From a virus, in IMG/VR virus record IMGVR_UViG_3300010413_000198, positions 1 to 30,737 of that record: 30,737 nucleotides of DNA; one strand, given 5' to 3'. The notes beneath the pieces were generated by a model. That model was given only the letters and a program-made list of their open reading frames with translations, had not been told where the DNA came from and did not search any database. Both the position numbers and the translations under genes were made by a program. Each line of letters begins with the position of its first letter. Within the stretch, counting starts at the first letter, position 1. Below are positions 1,321 through 14,320 of the stretch, piece by piece.

Positions 1321-3287
1321 CACGGCTCCTCGATTTCCAAGCCTGCGAGCTCATCGATTTCAGGTTCTGACGACTCGGCTTCGTTTTTATTACCCGGTTT
1401 TTCGCCGTCGGCAATCCGCCTCGCCCGTTTCAGCAAACGTTCGGCTTTGACCTTGCCGCCACCCGTCTTTTCCTGAATATCGTCAATCAGTTCTTCTTTG
1501 CTGCCTTCCGGATTCGCGGAAACGACTTCCAAGGCGAGCCCGAGTTTGTCATCGTCATCGCTGAACGGGTGGAAGCGCAGTGTCTCCGTGTTCAGGCTCA
1601 AGTCGATGGGTTCGGGTTCCTCGGCGTCACGCAGTTCGAAGTGCGCGGTGATGTACTTGCGGCGACTCACGGTGTCCCTGAATTTCTTCGCCACCATGAC
1701 ATGAGCGTTCCCCCAGTCCATGATGACCGACGAGCCCCGAATCCGGGCGCCGTGGCTTCCCTTGTTCGAATCGTTCGGTTTGTTGTGGTGGTGGACAATA
1801 ACGGTTCCCATCAGTCCGGCTTCACGAGCGGCCCATTCGATGTTTTCCAGAATGGCGCTCATTTCGTCGACCCGGTTCTCGTTCTTGCGGTGAAACCGCG
1901 CGAGAGGGTCGACGATGAGATACGACATTTTCTTGCGTTCAAGGGCCTCCCTCAAAATCCGGGCGTGTTTGGGTTGCCCGAAGTCGAGGCGCCCATTGTA
2001 AAAATGGAGCGGAAAGCGTTCCCACAACGACTCACGGCTGGCGGCGACGGTGTCGAGCCGGAACTTGAGCGATCCCCGGGAAACCTCGGCCTGCATGTAG
2101 CATACCGGCCCCGGCAGATTGACCCTGAACTGGTCCATGAACTCACCTTCGACGCCGGAGAGCAACAACATCAAATCCGTGACGAGCAACGATTTTCCGC
2201 TCTTGGATTCTCCGGAAAGAAAGCACATCCCACCGGCAGGCAGTATCCGCTCGACGGCGAAACGCAGCGGCGGCGCGTTGATGATGTCCTTTGCGGTCTC
2301 GAACACCAGAACCGAGCCGACTTCGTCACGCCGCAACGATTCGACTTCGGCGGTTCCGACGGCCTTGCGGAACGTGCGCTGAAAATAGTTTTCGTCGTTG
2401 TGACGCTCTTTCTCTTCGAGCATCTTCGCTGAAATGCCGTTGTTGGGATCATAGAAGATTTCGCGAATCTGGTCTTCGCTGAACCCAGCGACAAGCAGAC
2501 CGACCATGACCTTGAAGTCGATGGCGCTCCGGTCGACTTCCTTGGTGTCGTCCTTGGCCGCATACTTGGTCTCTGCCGCGGCTTCATGACCGCCGAGAAC
2601 CACGGTCCGCAGATCCCATCCGATGTCTTTGAAGGTCGCGGTGTCGATCGGAATCTGGCCTTCCCAGACCGCGTCGACATCCATGCTCAACAGCTCGCAC
2701 TGCGGACTTTCCAGAATGCCGTGATGCTTCCAGTTATAGGTCCCCGGGAGCCGCATGACCCGCGCCGGATTCGAAACGACTTTGTCGCCGCCCCAACGCT
2801 CCGCGAGGTCTTCGCAATCCTTCTTGACGTCCTTGATCGGTTTGGGTTGCGGGTAGAAGAAATACAGGTGCAGGCCTTTGCCGCTGGCGATGAATACCGA
2901 AGCCGGGATGTCGTCCTGCTCGATCATGGCCTCCCAGAATTCCTGCGATTTGTCGATGTCCACCCATGCCGCCGTCGCGACTTCGACATCTTCGTCTTTG
3001 CCCATCCTGCCGCGGCCTGTCGGCGTCTTCGCACGTGGAGCCGCGCCGAACCAGATTTCATAACCCTGTCGATTATTGTCGAGAACCCAGTCCGCGATGG
3101 AGAGATCGAAGGAGCGTTCCAGATTCTCGACCTTGCAGTATTCGGAGATCAGACCCGGCGCTCCGCTGATCTCGCAATGCGGTGATTTCTTTCCGCGAAA
3201 TTCGACCCAGCTTCCCTTCGGGGCATCGCGGAAAAGTCGAAGCAGAAATTCCTGTGCGGATCTCAGTGCGTGTTTCGTCGGCAGCAT
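1320..3287 (-). CDS. primase-helicase: AEP-type primase fused to RepA-like RecA-fold helicase
   Basis: The 655-residue protein should lay primers and unwind DNA at the phage fork. The N-terminal half looks like an archaeo-eukaryotic primase/PrimPol: the acidic pair VDID (about 109-112), SGKGLH (about 135-140) and the conserved R-MRLPGTYNWK region (about 176-187). A PriCT-like helical section follows (about 260-310). The C-terminal half is a RepA/AAA_25-type RecA-fold ATPase: Walker A GESKSGKS (359-366), Walker B YLIVDPLARF, a VIVHHHNKP sensor and a GSHGARIRGSS loop typical of RepA-like hexameric helicases. The start is set at the ATG behind a run of seven G, about 10 nt upstream. A TTG twelve codons earlier is possible but lacks support. 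It lies in one minus-strand unit with small genes of unknown role. Confidence 0.85.
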   Translation of the reverse strand: MLPTKHALRSAQEFLLRLFRDAPKGSWVEFRGKKSPHCEISGAPGLISEYCKVENLERSFDLSIADWVLDNNRQGYEIWFGAAPRAKTPTGRGRMGKDEDVEVATAAWVDIDKSQEFWEAMIEQDDIPASVFIASGKGLHLYFFYPQPKPIKDVKKDCEDLAERWGGDKVVSNPARVMRLPGTYNWKHHGILESPQCELLSMDVDAVWEGQIPIDTATFKDIGWDLRTVVLGGHEAAAETKYAAKDDTKEVDRSAIDFKVMVGLLVAGFSEDQIREIFYDPNNGISAKMLEEKERHNDENYFQRTFRKAVGTAEVESLRRDEVGSVLVFETAKDIINAPPLRFAVERILPAGGMCFLSGESKSGKSLLVTDLMLLLSGVEGEFMDQFRVNLPGPVCYMQAEVSRGSLKFRLDTVAASRESLWERFPLHFYNGRLDFGQPKHARILREALERKKMSYLIVDPLARFHRKNENRVDEMSAILENIEWAAREAGLMGTVIVHHHNKPNDSNKGSHGARIRGSSVIMDWGNAHVMVAKKFRDTVSRRKYITAHFELRDAEEPEPIDLSLNTETLRFHPFSDDDDKLGLALEVVSANPEGSKEELIDDIQEKTGGGKVKAERLLKRARRIADGEKPGNKNEAESSEPEIDELAGLEIEEP

Positions 3288-3310
3288 TGTGAACGGTCCC
3301 CCCCTTTGGT

Positions 3311-3745
3311 CTATTGAACGCAAGCCACCAAAATCCGGCCGAAGTTTGCTCCATGTCGTTTAACGTCGTCGATGGAATAAACGACGTACCGAACCGAAAC
3401 GCGGTGGGTACATCCGTTTTCGTAAACACTGGCGTCGGCGGAAAGTTCTATTTCGACTTCGTGCCGGTCTCCATAGATTTCATTATGACCACACGAAACG
3501 GCGTTGTCGAACCGACAGGTCACGTCGATCCAACGAACTTTTACGATCCGCCTGACTTCCTGACGAAAGATGCGGCCGATTTTCAGCTTCAACTGGTGGA
3601 AAGCCCGTTCGGGATTTTTCGCATCGCGATCTTTCTGATGCGCCAGACGGAATGCCTTTCCGACGGCAGCACGTTTGCGCCGGTTCGTGGCGCTGTTCAG
3701 AACACGCAGACAGTCGGCAACGGGATCCACGTTCTTCGGTTTCAT
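3311..3745 (-). CDS. hypothetical protein (144 aa)
   Basis: ATG is preceded by a strong ribosome-binding site (TAGGAGGGCAAG), and the stop lies 23 nt before the primase-helicase start. The N-terminal third is helical and basic (NRRKRAAVGKAFRLAHQKDRD). The C-terminal two-thirds alternate in a beta pattern with charged residues (HEVEIELSADASVYENG, VSVRYVVYS). No motif is recognised. A competing plus-strand frame of 150 codons over the same bases has no ribosome-binding site and is taken as a shadow. Confidence 0.65.
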   Translation of the reverse strand: MKPKNVDPVADCLRVLNSATNRRKRAAVGKAFRLAHQKDRDAKNPERAFHQLKLKIGRIFRQEVRRIVKVRWIDVTCRFDNAVSCGHNEIYGDRHEVEIELSADASVYENGCTHRVSVRYVVYSIDDVKRHGANFGRILVACVQ

Positions 3746-4124: not shown

Positions 4125-4910
4125 CTATATTTTCAACCAACGTTCCGGAACGATGTTCGCGGCACAGCGTCCAACGGATTCTTCGCAGAACCATTTGTGC
4201 GGAGCCACGATCTGCGATCCCGCGTTTTCGCCGAGCCATGCCGCCCACCACGAGAACGTCGAATTCGAGACGATATGATCGCCGAAAAGCGACATCGCGA
4301 AAAGATGCCCGATTTCATTGTCTTCGAGCGCGAACATCGCGCCTTCGACACCGCCGAAACGCAGGCGGACATAGTCGGGATCATCGCTGAAAAAGACGAA
4401 TTTGCGGCCCTTGAACTGGGCCATCGCACGTTCATAATAATCGGTGCGGTCCGCCAAATTGACGAAGACGTCGGAGAATCGCGAGATATAATCGCCACGA
4501 CGCACATGAACGACGACCGGGTTCTGTTCGAAGATTTTCGACCACCGAAGGAAGACAGATGTCGAGATCTCGGCGTTCGACGTGAACATTTCCTTCACGA
4601 TGAGTTTGCAGTGCTCGAAATATTTCTCGTTCTGGAAATAGCCGGTGATGAAGTTCTCGCCGGATTGCGGCACGAACGGCATGAAAAGTGAATCCGGAAA
4701 AACGATCTTTTCATGATCGGCAACGTCGAGATCTTCGACAATCGGAAACGGGTTCTTGAAAGACTCCGCATATTCCCAATTCGGCAACACCCACCGGCAC
4801 CGGTTTCGAGTCGCGATGCCGATTGTGGCCGCGACTTGGAAAAGCTGGTTTCCGAGACGGCCTTTCTTTCCGAGATCGACGGGGACAACGACGGTTTGCT
4901 GCTCGCTCAT
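4125..4910 (-). CDS. alpha-1,2-fucosyltransferase-like enzyme (GT11)
   Basis: The 261-residue protein carries the GT11 hallmarks in order: GRLGNQLFQ (17-25), VVHVRRGDY (133-141), FFSDDPDYV (about 173-181) and SNSTFSWWAAWLG (215-227). Family members move fucose from GDP-fucose to a sugar 2-OH. The VRRGDY motif is the donor-binding site. Length is close to bacterial members (about 280). ATG is chosen over an upstream in-frame ATG because AAAGG lies 7 nt before it. In a phage this may decorate the host surface, a virion protein or a modified DNA base, and the sequence does not say which. A second glycosyltransferase of another family lies at 24233-24904. Confidence 0.85.
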   Translation of the reverse strand: MSEQQTVVVPVDLGKKGRLGNQLFQVAATIGIATRNRCRWVLPNWEYAESFKNPFPIVEDLDVADHEKIVFPDSLFMPFVPQSGENFITGYFQNEKYFEHCKLIVKEMFTSNAEISTSVFLRWSKIFEQNPVVVHVRRGDYISRFSDVFVNLADRTDYYERAMAQFKGRKFVFFSDDPDYVRLRFGGVEGAMFALEDNEIGHLFAMSLFGDHIVSNSTFSWWAAWLGENAGSQIVAPHKWFCEESVGRCAANIVPERWLKI

Positions 4911-5159
4911 ATCTTCGCCTTTCTTCAAATTCAAAATAAACCCGGCCAGCCTATTGGAACACGGGAGGGCGTTTCATGTCGGCTGGCCGGGGTTTCAGGG
5001 ATGGAGTGTTCCGGTGGTTATCCAAGAATTGTGCTGAGCGTACCACACACTTTCGAAATAGATTGAGAACAATCTTGGTTTTCAAAGCGTCGGCTTTCAA
5101 GGTTTGGGAACCTAAAAATACTCGTTCACAATTTGGCCGGAACATTGCTCCACCAATGA
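4911..5159. other. intergenic region with hairpins between tRNA and fucosyltransferase gene
   Basis: No convincing gene is visible. The region holds an interrupted inverted repeat with 14-nt arms at 4938-4951 and 4981-4995 (CGGCCAGCC/GGCTGGCCG cores, one extra G, 29-nt loop), directly upstream of the fucosyltransferase start. There is also a perfect 6-bp hairpin AGATTG-loop-CAATCT near 5060-5080. A 64-codon minus-strand frame (4951-5145) has no ribosome-binding site or recognisable sequence and was not called. The hairpins could be a leader structure or end the tRNA transcript, but no good T-run follows. Confidence 0.5.
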
Positions 5160-8206: not shown

Positions 8207-9624
8207 TTAGCGCGCTTTTGAGTCATTACTGAGACTACATCCGCTAATCTTGAATCCTTCGGCACGGCAAGCCTTGACTCTGGACAGGAAGTGACGGCGG
8301 ACCACCCGGCTCCCGGTGTCCATGAAATCGTGGACGATTGCCTCGGTTTTGCCCTTCGACGTGCGCAGCGCCCGGCCGATCCTCTGAATGACCTTGACCA
8401 CGCTTTTTCCACCTGCGGCGAGAATCATGACGTCGAGCTCCGGGATATCGACGCCTTCATCAAATATGGGTGTGGCGAAGATGATGTCGATGACCCCGGC
8501 CCGGATGTCCTTCGTGGCCCGGATCCTCTGCGCCGTGGAATTTTTGCCGGTCAGTGCCGCGAATCGGACGTCGTCCTCACAGTTCATCAACTCCGACAGG
8601 ATCTTCAGATGCCGGACCGTGTCGCAGATGATGAGGATCTTGCGCCCGTTTCTGGCTTCCTCGACGGCGAGAGCGATGATTTTCCGGTTCCGGGCATCGT
8701 GATTCTCGATGAAGGTCTTGCGAAGAATCGCCCATAAAACCTCACCGGCGCACTCCGCGATCTGATCCGATGTTGGCGGCCCGACTTGGTGGTATTTGAC
8801 CAGACACGGCACAACCCGGCCGACGTCCGCCATCTTCCCCGCCCGTGCCCGTGCGACGACAGGACCGGTTGTTGCCATCATTCGGGCATCCTTGTCTGGA
8901 TTTCCGGTTTCTGGAGTAGCCGTCAATCCGAGCCGCCAATAAGCCGGAACCATTTGGGCGACTCGGTAGAATGAGCTCGCAGAAGCGACGATGTGGCTTT
9001 CGTCACAAATTAGAATCGAGGCCTTTTGGACCATTCCACGGAAAGCGTCGCGTTCGTTCACGATGGTCTGCGGCATGGCGATCAGATATTTGTGGCCGGG
9101 CGTCAGCTCGTCGAAGAGGCCGTCGCCGATCTTCGCCGCGGTTTGCCCCGTTCGTGCAAGGATTCGCTCCGCGGTCTGATGCAGAAGGGGTGACAGAGCC
9201 ACACGCAGAGCCCGGGGATATGCTCGGCGACCATGATTCCGCATTCCGTCTTTCCGGCACCCGTGGCGAGTGCGAAAATTCCGCGGCCCCAGCCAGCCAA
9301 GAACTTTTCGACGCATCGGATCTGAAATCCGGACGGCGTGATCCCGGAGATGATGTCTGCCCGGAATTTGTGGGGTTCCGGCCGTTTGCGTTCATCGACG
9401 AATTTCGCCAGCGGGAACAAACGCCGCAGTTTCGAGAGAAGCCCTGTCGGGATCGTGGACCGTATCGGGCTGATGGGGTGCCAGTAGCCGTCACCACGGA
9501 ACCCGGGAATGAATTTTGCGCTCGGTATTTCGAAGCGGATTTCACGATCCATTCGGCGCAACGTGTCACGGTCGGTCTCGATTTTCGAAACGATGTTCCC
9601 GATCTTGACGACGATTTCTGACAT
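8207..9624 (-). CDS. UvsW-like SF2 DNA/RNA helicase, interrupted by a frameshift
   Basis: Two overlapping frames together make one SF2 helicase. The first frame starts at the ATG at the right end and runs through residues 1-146 with GFQIRCVEKFL and Walker A ATGAGKT (120-126) up to VWLCHP. The second frame carries on at LLHQTAERILARTGQ with DESH (motif II), GLTATP (III) and QRIGRALR (VI). The switch falls at a run of four C on the coding strand (plus 9187-9190). One extra C, or a -1 slip, joins HP to LLHQTAERI as expected for motif Ia. Without it the first frame stops at 9103 (about 173 aa). T4 UvsW unwinds branched DNA and R-loops, and a similar role is likely. There is no purine-rich ribosome-binding site, and a GC hairpin lies immediately upstream. 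Confidence 0.8.
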
Positions 9625-9635
9625 GATAAATGGGC

Positions 9636-9726
9636 GGGGCCCGGGCTCCGCACCAGCCCGGGCCCCTATTGGGGGGATAGGGAAGTCCAAATTGAGGCCC
9701 GGGACGGATCCGCGTCGCCCCGGGCC
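9636..9726. repeat. two GC-rich hairpins in the helicase leader
   Basis: The first is a perfect 12-bp stem, GGGGCCCGGGCT (9636-9647) with AGCCCGGGCCCC (9655-9666), loop 7 nt, ending 11 nt from the helicase ATG. The second has 8-bp arms GGCCCGGG (9696-9703) and CCCGGGCC (9719-9726). Both lie between the recurring element at 9751-9785 and the helicase start, so they would be in the 5' untranslated RNA and may restrain translation. Related CCCGGGC hairpins occur at 21927-21957 and 23466-23489. Confidence 0.6.
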
Positions 9727-9840: not shown

Positions 9841-12800
9841 ATGAACCTCGCCGCGCTGCATTGCCACTCCGAGTTTTCGGCTCGGGATTCGCTGATCAGG
9901 ATCGGAGAATTGCCGCAGATCGCGAAAGATCAGGGATGGGATGCGGTCTCCCTCAACGATCACGGGGGGATCGACGGTGCCTTCCGTTTCGTGAAGGAAT
10001 GCAGAAAGGTCGGGATCAAGCCGATTCTGGGAACCGAACTCTATATCCATCTTGGTGACGACGTCCGCGACGCGCATTTGACGGTGATCGCCAAGAACGA
10101 AAACGGGTTTTCGTCGATTGCGAAGCTAATTTCGCATGGCAATATGCAGCGCTACAAACCCAAGCGCAGGCATGCCGCCGTGACGATGGAAGAAGTTTTT
10201 GAAATCCTTGAAGATTGTATTCTTCTTACCGGATGCGCCGGATCGGTTTTCTGGGGTGAAGATGAACGGGCACCCGGATATCTCGACAAAGCCCGTGAAA
10301 AATTCGGGGATGACCTCTTTTTCGAAGTCCAGCCGCTTTCCGACATGACCGATCAGCACCGAGTCAATCGGATCGTGGCATCAAAGGCCAAAAGTTTCGG
10401 TCACCCACTTGTTGTCGGATCTGACTGCCATTTTGCGCCCGGCGAACAGAAATTCCACGAGGCCTTGCTGGCCGTGGGGTCCCGGGCGCAGGTGGGGACT
10501 GATAAGGCATGGAAGTTCTCGACGAAACTGAACTACATCATGACGCCCGAAGATACCGTCGAGCACCTGAAACAGACAAATCTGACCGAAGCCGAAGCCC
10601 GTGCGGCGGTGGAGAACACCGAAGCGGTCTTCAATGAGGTCGGCAATTTCGACTGGAACCTGCTTCCGGCGCCACGACTTCCGAAGGTCTGCAAGGATCC
10701 CGAAGGCACTTTCCGGAAGCTCGCCGCCGACGGTCTGAAATGGCGTGGCCTCGACGGCAATCCCGAATACGAAGCGCGGCTCAAGGAAGAACTCGACGTC
10801 TTCTGCGAAGCCGGAATCGCCGGATATTTTACGCTTGCCGATGAGATCATCAAACTTTTCAGGCAGGAAGGCGCGTTCATAGGCCCGCGCGGTTCCGTTG
10901 GTGGCTCTCTTGTCGCGTATTGCATGGGCATCGCGCAGATGGACCCCATCAAGCATGAGCTTTCATATCAGAGGTTCTATTTTCCGGGCAGGAGAGGGTG
11001 GCCCGACATTGATATCGATCTCGATGACGATTTTCGCCAGCGTGTGCCCGAAATCCTTCGGGCCCGTTTCGGTGATTCAAATGTCGCACAGATTTCAAAC
11101 ATCATGTACTTCCGGGCGCGAACCGCCATTGCTGACGCCGCCATGGCTTATGGCGTCGATATTTCTTGGGTTTCGCAAACCTATGAACAGATCAAAGCCG
11201 CGGAGGAGAGCGGGAAGCTCGAAGACTTTCCGGCCGGGGCCTTCCTTCGAGACAATCATCCGGAGGCCTTCGCCTTCGCGAAAAAGCTGGTCAACCGGGT
11301 CAAAACGTTTGGCGCCCATGCCGGGGGATTCGTGATCTGCGAGAACGAGATCACGTCCGGGCGCTCGTGTGTCGTGAGGCGCGGGAAAGATCTCTGCCTT
11401 TCGTGGAACATGGCGGACAGCGAAGATCTCGGGTTCATCAAATTCGATTTTCTCGGCTTGTCATCTCTGAAAGCCATCAAAGCGATTCAGGAAATGACGG
11501 GGACAAGCCTTGATGACGCCGATTTCGAAGATGCGCGCGTCTATGACGACCTCTCGAATGGTCGATGCGCCGCGGTTCCGCATTTCCTTTCGGCCGGAAT
11601 GCGGATGTTTTTGGCGATGCTCAAGCCGAAGTGTTTCAAAGATCTTGTCTGGGCGATTTCGGCTTTCCGTCCCGGCGGTTTGGGGCAAATGACGCCTGAA
11701 AAATTGGTTGAAGCCTACCACCGCGACCCCGACGAGATCATCGTCTATCAGGAAGAGATCATGCACCTCTGCGTCGGGCTGGCCGGTTTCTCGTGGATGG
11801 AAGCCGACAAGGTCCGCAAAGTCATCGCCAAGAGCAAGGGGTCCGAAGCTCTCGACGCCTTTCGCGATAAGTTTGTCGAAGGGTGCTTGAAAAACGAAAC
11901 GCTCGACAAAGATGAAGCCAATGAACTATGGGATTCGATTCTTGAGTTTGGCCGGTACTCCTTCAACATGTGCTTGCATCCGTTGACGCTTGTGCTTATA
12001 ATAAATAGCGATGACACACTCGAAACAAGAGAAATTGGTATGGTCCGCAAAGGAGAATATCTCCTCGGTCCTAACGGTTCTAGGCGATTGGTCAAAAGCA
12101 AAATGGTCAGTGAGCGGCAATCGTTCGAGATTCTACTTGATGGCGGAGAAAGCGTTTGTTGTTCATCCGATCACCGCTTTGTCTCAGATCGAGGCATCGC
12201 GGAGCCGATTTACGAAATCGCGAAACGTGGTGGAAGTATTGCCGTCGAAACCAGCACACAATGCCCGGGAGTGGGCATGTCTGGGTTGCGGGAAAAAGTT
12301 CACGGGAAGGCACAGAAAAAACAAACATCAGAGGGAATGTCCAAAGTACCCAGAAGCAAGAAAGAAATTACGTGCGGACACGATGCGCAAAAATTGGGAG
12401 AATCCAATTCATCGGGAACATATGATCGCGTCTGCATCGAAACCGAAACCATTGACCCCCGCAGTTCTACGGGCAAGAATGGAAGCAGCAAAAAGATTTC
12501 AAAAGTGGAGAGAAGAGAACCCGGACAAAGTGAAAGAACATGTGAAGTTGATGCAAAAAGCTGCAAGGAAGTCAAAACGGACGATATCAGCTTTAGAGGA
12601 TGGTTTCGCGAAACTTGTTCCAAATGCTGCGCGGCGGATATTATTCCGCCTGAATGGGAAGAACTACGAAGCGGATTTCCTGCTTTCAAAGAAGTTTATG
12701 GTGGAAATCGACGGGCTTCATCACTTCAAGCCTGTTTTTGGGGAAACACGGCTCGCTCAAGTACGATCCCGCGATGTATGTTTGGAGAAAGCGGTTCTGA

Positions 12801-14049
12801 AATCGAAGTCAATCAGGCTCGTGCGGATCGGGATCGATTGCTTCACGACGAGAGGGGATATCCGTCCGGTGATGTTGAAGAAGATCGTGGCCTCTCTGAA
12901 AGATACGACACCCGGCATCGTGCGCTTCGGAAAATTGTGGCAATCGTTACAAGGGGAATCGAGTCTTTAATTGATATTGAAGTTGATGAAGACCATCTTT
13001 TCATGCTTGCGAATGGCATTATTTCACATAATTCCCATGCCACGGCATATTCCGGTTCCTCATTCAAGATTGCATGGGCGAAGCGTGCGTTCCCGATCGA
13101 ATCCTATTGTGCCCTACTGCAACTAGAGCAGGCCAAAGCGAAGAAGCGTCAGGAAAACGAAATTTCTTTCCTGCTCGACGAAATGATGGAACTCGGGATT
13201 CCGGTCACGCCACCGGATGTTAATCTGTCCGGGCTCGATTGGCTTATCGTCGAGACCGGGAAAGGCAAAGCGATCGCGACTCCGCTGACCGAAATCCCGG
13301 GAATGAAGACCACCACCGCGAAAGCGATTTTCAATCGTCGTATCGGAGAAACAAAAACAGATCCCGGCGGGCCGTTCAAAGACAAAGAGGATTTGCGCAA
13401 GCGGCTCGGAAAGTTGAAATACCCGCCCGGACTTCTGGAATGTGCGTTCGGCGAACGTGTTTCGATTTCGGGAGAAGTTCGAAATCCCCGCGGGGCTTTC
13501 GAAAAGGAATTTCTGCACGAGATCAAGACCTGCGTCGATTGTGAACTCACGTCGTTGTGCAGGGCCCCGGTTCTTCCAGAACGCGGGAACACGAATATTC
13601 TGATCGTCGGTGAGGCTCCCGGGAATGATGAGGACCGTAGAGGCCGCCCATTTGTCGGGAAGTCCGGAAAGCTGATGAATCTGATTCTCGACCGTTATGG
13701 GATCAAGCGCGGCGATGTGACATGGACGAATTCTGTCCATTGCAAGCCGAACGGACCCGAATATCCGACCGATTGCCCATGGGTTTTCGACGAAATCGCG
13801 CGGCTCGAACCGCCGCTGATTCTTGCCGTCGGTCGCCGTGCTTTTCACAAACTCGGCGGCGACATCGGGATCATGAAAGCGAATGGCCGGGTTTTCGATC
13901 TTCCTGATCTTCCGCCGGTCGTGGCGAGTATTCACCCGGCATATGTGCTTCGGAACGAAACCGCGCTGCCGGAAATCGAACGCGCACTTCGAAAATTTGC
14001 ATCAATGGCGCTTCGCCTGATCGGAAAGAGCAATGGCAAGAAGGCATAA
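9841..14049 (+). CDS. DNA polymerase III alpha (PHP + C-family core), intein-bearing, fused to uracil-DNA glycosylase
   Basis: Precursor of 1402 aa, about 1048 aa after removal of the 354-aa intein. The PHP domain comes first (LHCHSEFS, LNDHGG, GTELYI, SDCHF), with metal ligands largely kept, so proofreading is conceivable. The C-family core has PRGSVGGSLVAY, PDIDIDLDDDF (two catalytic Asp), AHAGGFVI and FDFLGLSSLKAI (third Asp), then VYQEEIM. The intein sits between FNM and SHATAYS. A helix-hairpin-helix region follows (EIPGMKTTTAKAIF). The usual OB fold and clamp/tau-binding tail are missing. In their place is a family-4-type uracil-DNA glycosylase (about 13490-14049): CVDC...C...C for a 4Fe-4S cluster, GEAPGNDEDRRGRPFVGKSG and HPAYVLR. 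It is the first gene of the replication operon. The 16 in-frame codons before this ATG would overlap the regulatory element. Confidence 0.9.
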   Translation: MNLAALHCHSEFSARDSLIRIGELPQIAKDQGWDAVSLNDHGGIDGAFRFVKECRKVGIKPILGTELYIHLGDDVRDAHLTVIAKNENGFSSIAKLISHGNMQRYKPKRRHAAVTMEEVFEILEDCILLTGCAGSVFWGEDERAPGYLDKAREKFGDDLFFEVQPLSDMTDQHRVNRIVASKAKSFGHPLVVGSDCHFAPGEQKFHEALLAVGSRAQVGTDKAWKFSTKLNYIMTPEDTVEHLKQTNLTEAEARAAVENTEAVFNEVGNFDWNLLPAPRLPKVCKDPEGTFRKLAADGLKWRGLDGNPEYEARLKEELDVFCEAGIAGYFTLADEIIKLFRQEGAFIGPRGSVGGSLVAYCMGIAQMDPIKHELSYQRFYFPGRRGWPDIDIDLDDDFRQRVPEILRARFGDSNVAQISNIMYFRARTAIADAAMAYGVDISWVSQTYEQIKAAEESGKLEDFPAGAFLRDNHPEAFAFAKKLVNRVKTFGAHAGGFVICENEITSGRSCVVRRGKDLCLSWNMADSEDLGFIKFDFLGLSSLKAIKAIQEMTGTSLDDADFEDARVYDDLSNGRCAAVPHFLSAGMRMFLAMLKPKCFKDLVWAISAFRPGGLGQMTPEKLVEAYHRDPDEIIVYQEEIMHLCVGLAGFSWMEADKVRKVIAKSKGSEALDAFRDKFVEGCLKNETLDKDEANELWDSILEFGRYSFNMCLHPLTLVLIINSDDTLETREIGMVRKGEYLLGPNGSRRLVKSKMVSERQSFEILLDGGESVCCSSDHRFVSDRGIAEPIYEIAKRGGSIAVETSTQCPGVGMSGLREKVHGKAQKKQTSEGMSKVPRSKKEITCGHDAQKLGESNSSGTYDRVCIETETIDPRSSTGKNGSSKKISKVERREPGQSERTCEVDAKSCKEVKTDDISFRGWFRETCSKCCAADIIPPEWEELRSGFPAFKEVYGGNRRASSLQACFWGNTARSSTIPRCMFGESGSEIEVNQARADRDRLLHDERGYPSGDVEEDRGLSERYDTRHRALRKIVAIVTRGIESLIDIEVDEDHLFMLANGIISHNSHATAYSGSSFKIAWAKRAFPIESYCALLQLEQAKAKKRQENEISFLLDEMMELGIPVTPPDVNLSGLDWLIVETGKGKAIATPLTEIPGMKTTTAKAIFNRRIGETKTDPGGPFKDKEDLRKRLGKLKYPPGLLECAFGERVSISGEVRNPRGAFEKEFLHEIKTCVDCELTSLCRAPVLPERGNTNILIVGEAPGNDEDRRGRPFVGKSGKLMNLILDRYGIKRGDVTWTNSVHCKPNGPEYPTDCPWVFDEIARLEPPLILAVGRRAFHKLGGDIGIMKANGRVFDLPDLPPVVASIHPAYVLRNETALPEIERALRKFASMALRLIGKSNGKKA
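11971..13032 (+). mobile_element. intein in DNA polymerase III alpha
   Basis: The splicing blocks are intact. Cys1 starts CLHPLTLVLI (block A). ILLDGGESVCCSSDHRFVS is block B. LIDIEVDEDHLFMLANG (F) and IISHN (G, His-Asn end) are followed by Ser+1 of the extein. The site is the conserved FN-SHATAYS region of the polymerase, four residues past the classic cyanobacterial DnaE split-intein site. The splicing parts add up to about 134 residues, a mini-intein size. The 220 residues between them in this frame (about 12265-12925) are Ser/Lys/Glu-rich and match nothing, because those bases encode an endonuclease in another frame. Confidence 0.88.
12011..12970 (+). CDS. Vsr/EDxHD-like homing endonuclease nested out of frame inside the intein
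   Basis: This frame is +1 relative to the polymerase/intein frame. Recognisable protein begins near 12278 with a zinc-finger CLGCGKKFTGRHRKNKHQRE and C, then a basic helical linker (RARMEAAKRFQKWREENPDK). The nuclease domain follows: LEDGFAKLVP, GKNYEADFLLSKKFMVEIDG, LHHFKP, SRDVCLEKA and SIRLVRIG, the E-D-H-D order of Vsr-like homing nucleases. The first 85 codons are a shadow of the intein N-terminal block, so the true start is uncertain: GTG 12227, ATG 12140 or ATG 12383 are options, none with a good ribosome-binding site. It would cut intein-less polymerase genes to spread the intein. Endonucleases of this type are known from fractured split-intein genes. Confidence 0.75.
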   Translation: MTHSKQEKLVWSAKENISSVLTVLGDWSKAKWSVSGNRSRFYLMAEKAFVVHPITALSQIEASRSRFTKSRNVVEVLPSKPAHNAREWACLGCGKKFTGRHRKNKHQRECPKYPEARKKLRADTMRKNWENPIHREHMIASASKPKPLTPAVLRARMEAAKRFQKWREENPDKVKEHVKLMQKAARKSKRTISALEDGFAKLVPNAARRILFRLNGKNYEADFLLSKKFMVEIDGLHHFKPVFGETRLAQVRSRDVCLEKAVLKSKSIRLVRIGIDCFTTRGDIRPVMLKKIVASLKDTTPGIVRFGKLWQSLQGESSL

Positions 14050-14320
14050 AAGACGGGCTGCCGAGCGGCGCGCGGAACTGATCGCCAAACTCGGCGGAAA
14101 GTGCAAATGCTGCGGTTCGACTGAAGATCTTGAGATCGATCACATCAACGGCCGGACGTGGAATCTGCGCGAGAAATCTTCAGACGTCAGAATCGCGATT
14201 TATGAACGGGAAGCGAAACAGGGGCTTCTTCAGATTCTCTGCAAACCATGTAATGCCAGCAAGGGCGGGCATGGATATCCAAAACCGACAAAACGCAAAC
14301 GCAAGAAAGGCAAACCATGA
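14033..14320 (+). CDS. small HNH endonuclease (95 aa)
   Basis: A compact HNH domain: CKCC (about residues 24-27), LEIDHINGRTWN, and LCKPCNASKGG as the second zinc pair with the final Asn. The ends are very basic (MARRHKRRAAERR; KRKRKKGKP). The ATG overlaps the last 17 nt of the polymerase gene in another frame, so the two are coupled, and its stop overlaps the next ATG (ATGA). It may be a homing or structure-cutting nuclease used in recombination or packaging. The family alone does not decide. No intron is visible around it. Confidence 0.85.
   Translation: MARRHKRRAAERRAELIAKLGGKCKCCGSTEDLEIDHINGRTWNLREKSSDVRIAIYEREAKQGLLQILCKPCNASKGGHGYPKPTKRKRKKGKP

Follow-up and report, generated by a model that had tools for sequence, protein, structure and literature searches.

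Can a single stretch of DNA inside a phage polymerase gene serve as a protein-splicing intein in one reading frame and as a homing endonuclease gene in another? In the usual view, an intein and its nuclease form one nested polypeptide or, after fracture of the host gene, separate genes. The question arises from the uncultured-virus record IMGVR_UViG_3300010413_000198, a phage contig of 30,737 bases that is referred to here as the window. Its polymerase frame (frame 0) runs without a stop from 9793 to about 14046-14049, encoding in turn polymerase, a 354-residue intein and polymerase again. Within the intein (Table 1), the same DNA is apparently read as two proteins, and the arrangement recurs in other phages.

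The intein is surrounded by a replication module comprising a primase-helicase, a helicase, the DnaE-type polymerase, a gp32-like single-strand binding protein, RecA, and SbcD-like and SbcC-like proteins. The polymerase is fused to a family-4 uracil-DNA glycosylase, with the UDG domain at the C-terminus (13500-14049, plus strand); Pseudomonas phage Nican01 and Rhizobium phage N1_15 have polymerases with C-termini of similar appearance. The polymerase stop codon lies within a small endonuclease VII/HNH-like gene (14033-14320, plus strand), and an endonuclease VII gene also adjoins the intein-bearing polymerase of the Rhodococcus phages Francesca and Dorin. The XPB-like helicase gene (8207-9690, minus strand), to the N-terminal part of which SPO1 gp19.5 is related, consists of two overlapping ORFs in different frames that break at about 9170, with the Walker A motif in one and the helicase C domain in the other. 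This break is a genomic frameshift, a programmed shift or a read error, and because of it single-base errors in the window contig cannot be excluded in general. The GC content of the intein is 47%, against 55% for the host gene, and falls to 34% over the final 100 bases; the low value would be in keeping with a recent horizontal arrival.

Table 1. Features of the window, and viral inteins at the DnaE site with an in-frame nuclease
Feature	Locus	Position	Strand	Basis
N-extein: PHP and polymerase domains of a DnaE-type DNA polymerase III alpha	window	9841..11970	+	Pfam PHP, DNA_pol3_alpha, DNA_pol3_finger; phrog_405 E=1.7e-196
Whole intein CLHPLT...GIISHN, 354 stop-free codons, then Ser of the C-extein	window	11971..13032	+	frame 0; NCBIfam intein_Cterm above cut-off; Foldseek
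N-terminal splicing half, block A (Cys1) to block B (CSSDHRF, His68)	window	11971..12255	+	AF2 pLDDT, conservation
Weak Shine-Dalgarno-like GGTGG, 5 bases ahead of TTG 12239	window	12229..12233	+	duplex energy -4.9 kcal/mol, unremarkable against background
Putative hidden homing endonuclease gene, 243 aa	window	12239..12970	+	+1 frame; profile match, stop shuffles, homologues
Frame-0 linker, blocks B to F, Ser/Arg/Glu/Gly-rich	window	12256..12906	+	predicted disordered; composition
Zinc-finger-like CLGCGKKF...HQREC of the hidden nuclease	window	12278..12340	+	+1 frame; conservation
EDxHD (Vsr-like) catalytic core	window	12590..12850	+	E 12596, D 12674, E 12704, D 12710, H 12722, D 12773
C-terminal splicing half: block F (IDIEVDEDHLF), block G (NGIISHN)	window	12907..13032	+	pLDDT, conservation
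C-extein: SHATAY..., HHH motif, fused family-4 uracil-DNA glycosylase	window	13033..14049	+	Pfam HHH_6, UDG; TIGR00758
In-frame HNH, viral inteins, DnaE site	L125, L126, L137, L139, L129, L134, L138, L143, L170 group, L179, L180			assigned by eye from motifs
In-frame LAGLIDADG, viral intein, DnaE site	L189			assigned by eye from motifs

The intein is inserted between FNM and SHATAY, where intein-free relatives read FNK-SH[AS]-x-A-Y, so that both junctions are exact; together with the open frame 0, these empty sites bear out the boundaries given in a preliminary description of this DNA. An intein-bearing query aligned over the full site with nine Rhodococcus phage records, and all five of those inspected carry mini-inteins of 150-168 residues at the DnaE site. 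Judged by sequence, the window element is an intein, and its insertion point is of a known kind. The residues expected of class 1 splicing are present (Cys1, block B His68, block F Asp335 and the HN-S junction), with His68, Asp335, Asn348 and Asn354 invariant among 14 inteins of the DnaE site. AF2 predicted the splicing domain (residues 1-95 and 313-354) with high confidence and block means of pLDDT mostly 90-97. In the N-half, these means were 90-96 for residues 1-90 and 67 for residues 91-100; in the C-half they ranged from 72 to 97, with the lowest (72) beside the linker. Linker residues 111-306 scored below 50, mostly 30-40, and are predicted to be disordered. By Foldseek, the best matches of the splicing domain were inteins, with gp41-1 (6qaz) first at a probability of 1.00; the 13 PDB matches at E<=0.001 included the gp41-1, DnaB and NpuDnaE inteins, indicating a horseshoe HINT fold. 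With the residues in place and the fold predicted, the earlier claim that blocks A, B, F and G are intact in the polymerase frame stands. The best reading is that the window intein would be competent to splice, with excision and ligation themselves inferred, not shown. A group I or II intron carrying a homing gene was considered as well and rejected, as an Rfam scan of 11800-13200 gave no family at E<=1 and hence no catalytic intron RNA.

The +1 frame is open from 12005 to 12967 (321 codons) and holds a CxxC...H...C motif as well as ADF...VEIDGLHHF...SRD, the conserved residues of EDxHD (Vsr-like) nucleases; its stop codon, at 12968-12970, falls within block F. A profile built from 11 phage EDxHD endonucleases, with the window sequence excluded, matched this frame at 95% probability (E=3.7e-8, residues 216-292 of the ORF at 12011), and the same profile found no match in frame 0. 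With the nuclease core alone, tblastn returned genes annotated 'homing endonuclease EDxHD' and 'VSR homing endonuclease', at weak E-values. A Foldseek search with a low-confidence model of the nuclease (pLDDT 60) placed I-Bth0305I (3r3p) first, weakly (E=0.068), and Vsr (1cw0) seventh. The motifs and the profile match thus support the preliminary assignment of a zinc-finger plus Vsr/EDxHD nuclease to the +1 frame, and by its sequence the predicted product belongs to the EDxHD (Vsr-like) homing nucleases; site-specific cleavage of an intein-less allele is inferred. Upstream of about 12260, the openness of the +1 frame is unremarkable (P 0.33-0.58 by shuffling), so the gene probably starts at 12227-12239 rather than at 12011. 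TTG 12239 is the best candidate, with GTG 12227/12230, ATG 12140 and ATG 12011 as alternatives, and both TTG 12239 and the two GTG codons directly precede the zinc finger. A perfect hairpin in the N-terminal splicing half, AAGGAG-AAT-ATCTCCT at 12050-12065, contains a strong Shine-Dalgarno core; it was rejected as the start signal of the nuclease for lack of a suitably spaced ATG, GTG or TTG in the +1 frame.

By searching with the C-terminal junction, we recovered DnaE inteins at the site used in the window. Two of them, L122 and L130, carry a homologous nuclease in the +1 frame with the polymerase frame open across it, and a nuclease-alignment search added a third, L156, at the same DnaE site, likewise in +1 and with frame 0 open. 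In L122 and L156 the nuclease occupies the interval from block B to block F, as in the window; in L130 it follows directly on block A. The nucleophile at position 1 is Cys in the window, L156 and L130, and Ser in L122. The four hidden homologues are divergent, with at most 34% identity to the window. Within the zinc finger, the second Cys, the His and the last Cys are invariant, and in the EDxHD core the E, D, E, D and H are invariant in all four; the last D is found in three (the window, L122 and L156), L130 having no aligned counterpart. In L130 (4870-6096), this location of the nuclease recalls the point at which atypical split inteins with a very short N-part are divided. A second intein in the contig of L122 (L155, 2414-3619), at the PDIDxD site of the same polymerase, also hides a +1 nuclease (2598-3572). 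This one is a zinc-finger, T7-endonuclease-I-like protein (PF05367 E=1.5e-4; phrog_9019 E=3.3e-12) unrelated to that of the window. All five out-of-frame cases are in +1.

The four members found of the window nuclease subfamily all come from uncultured-virus contigs. Two viral scans yielded no further members, nor were any present elsewhere in 20 contigs; a plasmid search, and a bacterial-genome search with nuclease alignment A7, gave no matches. No close relatives emerged when the entire nuclease, the polymerase or the DNA served directly as the query; it was the nuclease-core and junction alignments that succeeded. Among free-standing EDxHD homologues at 26 viral loci, none overlapped an open host frame. 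An in-frame homologue, which the preliminary description had named as a finding that would refute it, was not found for this subfamily.

If the nuclease is encoded in +1, each stop in frame 0 must read T-AA, T-AG or T-GA, with the T at the third codon position of the nuclease. We shuffled the genes by holding the nuclease amino acids fixed, redrawing synonymous codons from the gene's own or the extein usage, and counting frame-0 stops over 20,000-50,000 draws. For the window (codons 12239-12967), 10.3 stops were expected with its own codons and 11.0 with extein usage, with means of about 9-12 overall; none was observed, and a count of zero never occurred in 50,000 draws (P<2e-5). The chance of 0.00003 on which the openness of the polymerase frame had first been called selected was crude, yet in the right range. 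The avoidance is visible in the codons themselves: a wobble T precedes AA, AG or GA codons in 0 of 53 cases in the window, against 42 of 127 before other codons and 34 of 218 in the exteins. Frame-0 stops were likewise absent from all five hidden cases, for which shuffles with their own usage gave means of 8.4-12.7, and the weakest single P was 0.002 (extein usage). Pooled over the five, a wobble T precedes AA, AG or GA in 0 of 268 cases, compared with 257 of 787 elsewhere in the same genes and 167 of 1062 in the exteins; at the extein rate, 0/268 has an arithmetic probability of about 1e-20.

Between copies, mismatches in the linker are fewest at position 2 and most frequent at position 3 of the +1 codons, the pattern of a coding +1 frame. 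Selection on frame 0 beyond openness was not found, the identity of the linker being no higher than +1-synonymous reshuffling gives. Taken together, these two results indicate that the nuclease is selected for its sequence and the polymerase frame only for its openness. The proposal that one stretch serves both as intein linker and as a gene is supported: a linker kept open fits the data, but a selected linker sequence is unsupported. Codon-usage scores were excluded as evidence, since they do not cleanly separate the frames within an intein whose composition differs from that of its host, and openness without homology was never counted, as a nested-ORF screen turned up many chance ORFs in GC-rich polymerase regions.

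The constancy of the phase may follow from the genetic code. By dynamic programming, the hidden nucleases can be encoded in +1 without any host-frame stop and with their amino acids unchanged, whereas the +2 phase leaves 0-4 unavoidable stops. Since every T-ending codon has a C-ending synonym, silent changes can always rid a +1 insert of its host-frame stops. That +1 is the phase in which this is always possible is inferred from the code and agrees with five of five cases; the sample is small and drawn from one polymerase family. As for expression, L130 has AAAGGAG seven bases ahead of GTG 4934, in a nuclease frame that opens at 4901; the sequence and spacing are canonical, and the Shine-Dalgarno energy falls between the top 5% and 25% of a purine-rich background. 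In L156 (AGGAAGG ahead of GTG 4893) and L122 (GGAGG ahead of ATG 5219/5222), the spacing is likewise suitable and the energy lies in the top 5% of the respective background. In L155, the second intein of the L122 contig, no recognisable Shine-Dalgarno site precedes the hidden start. The nuclease is thus likely to be separately initiated, with its translation inferred and the support weakest in the window; a shift out of the polymerase frame is still possible as its source.

At the same DnaE site, 12 distinct viral inteins have a readable in-frame nuclease, HNH or LAGLIDADG (Table 1), and in these inteins the other frames hold stops or short openings only. Mini-inteins are numerous. A genome scan with the C-junction found four DnaE inteins: L163 and L164 (bacterial-genome inteins with in-frame HNH), L165 (small) and L166 (partial, also from a bacterial genome). 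By eye, L166 (1-540, Candidatus Eremiobacterota) has an apparent in-frame Vsr/EDxHD-type domain (VCDFYFGGIYWEMDGMDRH) at this site, in a contig that begins inside the intein. At least two inteins per DnaE gene are seen in L136, L143, L164 and L188, some of them a few residues from FNK-SHA.

We consider it probable that the window holds a splicing-competent mobile intein in which a homing gene is overprinted in the +1 frame and translated separately. The sequence analysis itself establishes the boundaries, the homologies, the joint openness beyond chance, the recurrence, the phase and the conservation of the nuclease frame, with splicing, translation, cleavage and homing all inferred. Against this reading stand the weak ribosome-binding site ahead of the window nuclease and its lack in L155, the low-confidence nuclease model with its weak fold match, the small size of the subfamily as found, the Ser at position 1 of L122 and the apparent frameshift in the helicase gene. 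Ribosomes in the polymerase frame would make an unbroken precursor, reading the nuclease bases as a disordered linker, and the splicing halves would fold together across this linker, excise themselves and join the polymerase. Other ribosomes would initiate inside the intein in +1 to produce the zinc-finger/EDxHD nuclease, which may then cut intein-less polymerase alleles at FNM/SHA, so that repair copies the intein in. Such an arrangement would be stable because stops in the +1 phase require a wobble T, and changing T to C never alters the nuclease.

Other accounts of the same DNA can be given. Two compensating indels, erroneous or real, could disguise an ordinary intein with a truly in-frame nuclease, and the apparent helicase frameshift near 9170 is a reminder that the contig is not guaranteed to be free of errors. 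Frame 0 of the linker would then be untranslated, with about ten stops expected where there are none; moreover, three independent contigs share the +1 phase with an open frame 0, and an unrelated nuclease in a second intein is also in +1. Indels, which the preliminary description had itself named as a possible refutation, cannot account for five cases in one phase and are refuted as a general account, and we regard this explanation as barely credible. A loop-like insertion that the protein tolerates without ever splicing it out, the proposal made for the ShiLan domain of phage methylases (PMC11855218), shares the out-of-frame principle and is equally hard to credit: all splicing blocks are present here, unlike in ShiLan, and the splicing fold reaches a pLDDT of 90-97 over most of the halves. 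Retention would be expected to be harmful, as the site breaks the conserved FNK-SHA motif of the polymerase, and real mini-inteins occupy the same site.

A decaying intein, in which a once in-frame nuclease was silenced by a frameshift and splicing alone maintained, gains something from the weak start signal of the window copy and from the many mini-inteins at the site, where nuclease loss is common. Against decay, the catalytic residues and the finger are conserved in four copies as divergent as these, substitutions are distributed over the +1 codon positions as in coding sequence, two different nuclease families share the phase, and a Shine-Dalgarno-like site precedes the hidden start in three copies, which makes decay unlikely. 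Programmed +1 frameshifting would instead yield a fusion of N-extein, N-terminal intein half and nuclease; as +1 is open from 12005, a shift anywhere up to the linker would suffice. We think this very unlikely, given that the nuclease frame of L130 opens only at 4901, with a canonical AAAGGAG-7-GTG at 4934, and that the upstream +1 openness of the window is at chance level, although no systematic search for slippery motifs was made.

With canonical large inteins carrying HNH or LAGLIDADG nucleases, the window element, which we read as a splicing intein with a separately encoded nuclease, shares the splicing domain, the position of the nuclease between blocks B and F and the DnaE site (L125, L126, L137, L139, L170 group and L189). 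In those, however, the nuclease and intein are one polypeptide, whereas the +1 nuclease of the window would have to be a separate protein. Dassa et al. in 2009 reportedly described fractured genes in which split inteins are accompanied by EDxHD homing genes (gp41-1, NrdJ-1). Such genes likewise associate inteins with a nuclease of the I-Bth0305I-like fold class, and gp41-1 is the closest solved splicing fold, but they comprise two genes with a free-standing nuclease between them, while in the window the host and intein share one frame that the nuclease overlaps. Frame 0 is uninterrupted in the window, L122, L156 and L130, so none of these meets the definition of a split host gene or intein. 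The catalytic core and motif are shared with I-Bth0305I and other EDxHD homing endonucleases of phage group I introns, which are free-standing or intron-encoded, in contrast to the window, where no intron RNA was detected. The ShiLan domain, an insertion in a phage methylase, carries an HNH gene out of frame while the host frame stays open, and its authors found no intein or intron features in it (PMC11855218). As in the present cases, the endonuclease is read in a different frame from the host gene, which itself runs through the insertion, and the element is mobile by its distribution; it differs in lacking intein blocks and in having an HNH nuclease in the third host frame, as opposed to a complete intein with an EDxHD or T7-endonuclease-I-like nuclease in +1. 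An out-of-frame nuclease within a splicing intein has no description in the literature searched, though a preprint on actinobacteriophage inteins of 'non-canonical architecture' (10.1101/2025.01.02.630785) may overlap.

On balance, we lean towards the view that frame-decoupled inteins are a recurrent class, with at least two unrelated nuclease families, two polymerase sites and two positions in the splicing fold, always in +1. They would be working inteins and dual-coding mobile elements, whose nuclease may be regulated or lost separately from splicing, and would plausibly form a bridge to split inteins that have free-standing nucleases. As intact inteins in which splicing and nuclease share DNA but not a reading frame, they would uncouple expression of a selfish nuclease from that of an essential polymerase, and they suggest a route by which a homing gene could invade an intein without fusion. 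They also provide a concrete candidate for an intermediate on the way to split inteins, a role that has not been shown. A survey confined to host-frame translation would record such an element as an intein with a meaningless linker and overlook its nuclease, and the restriction to +1 makes a sharp prediction for all intein collections.
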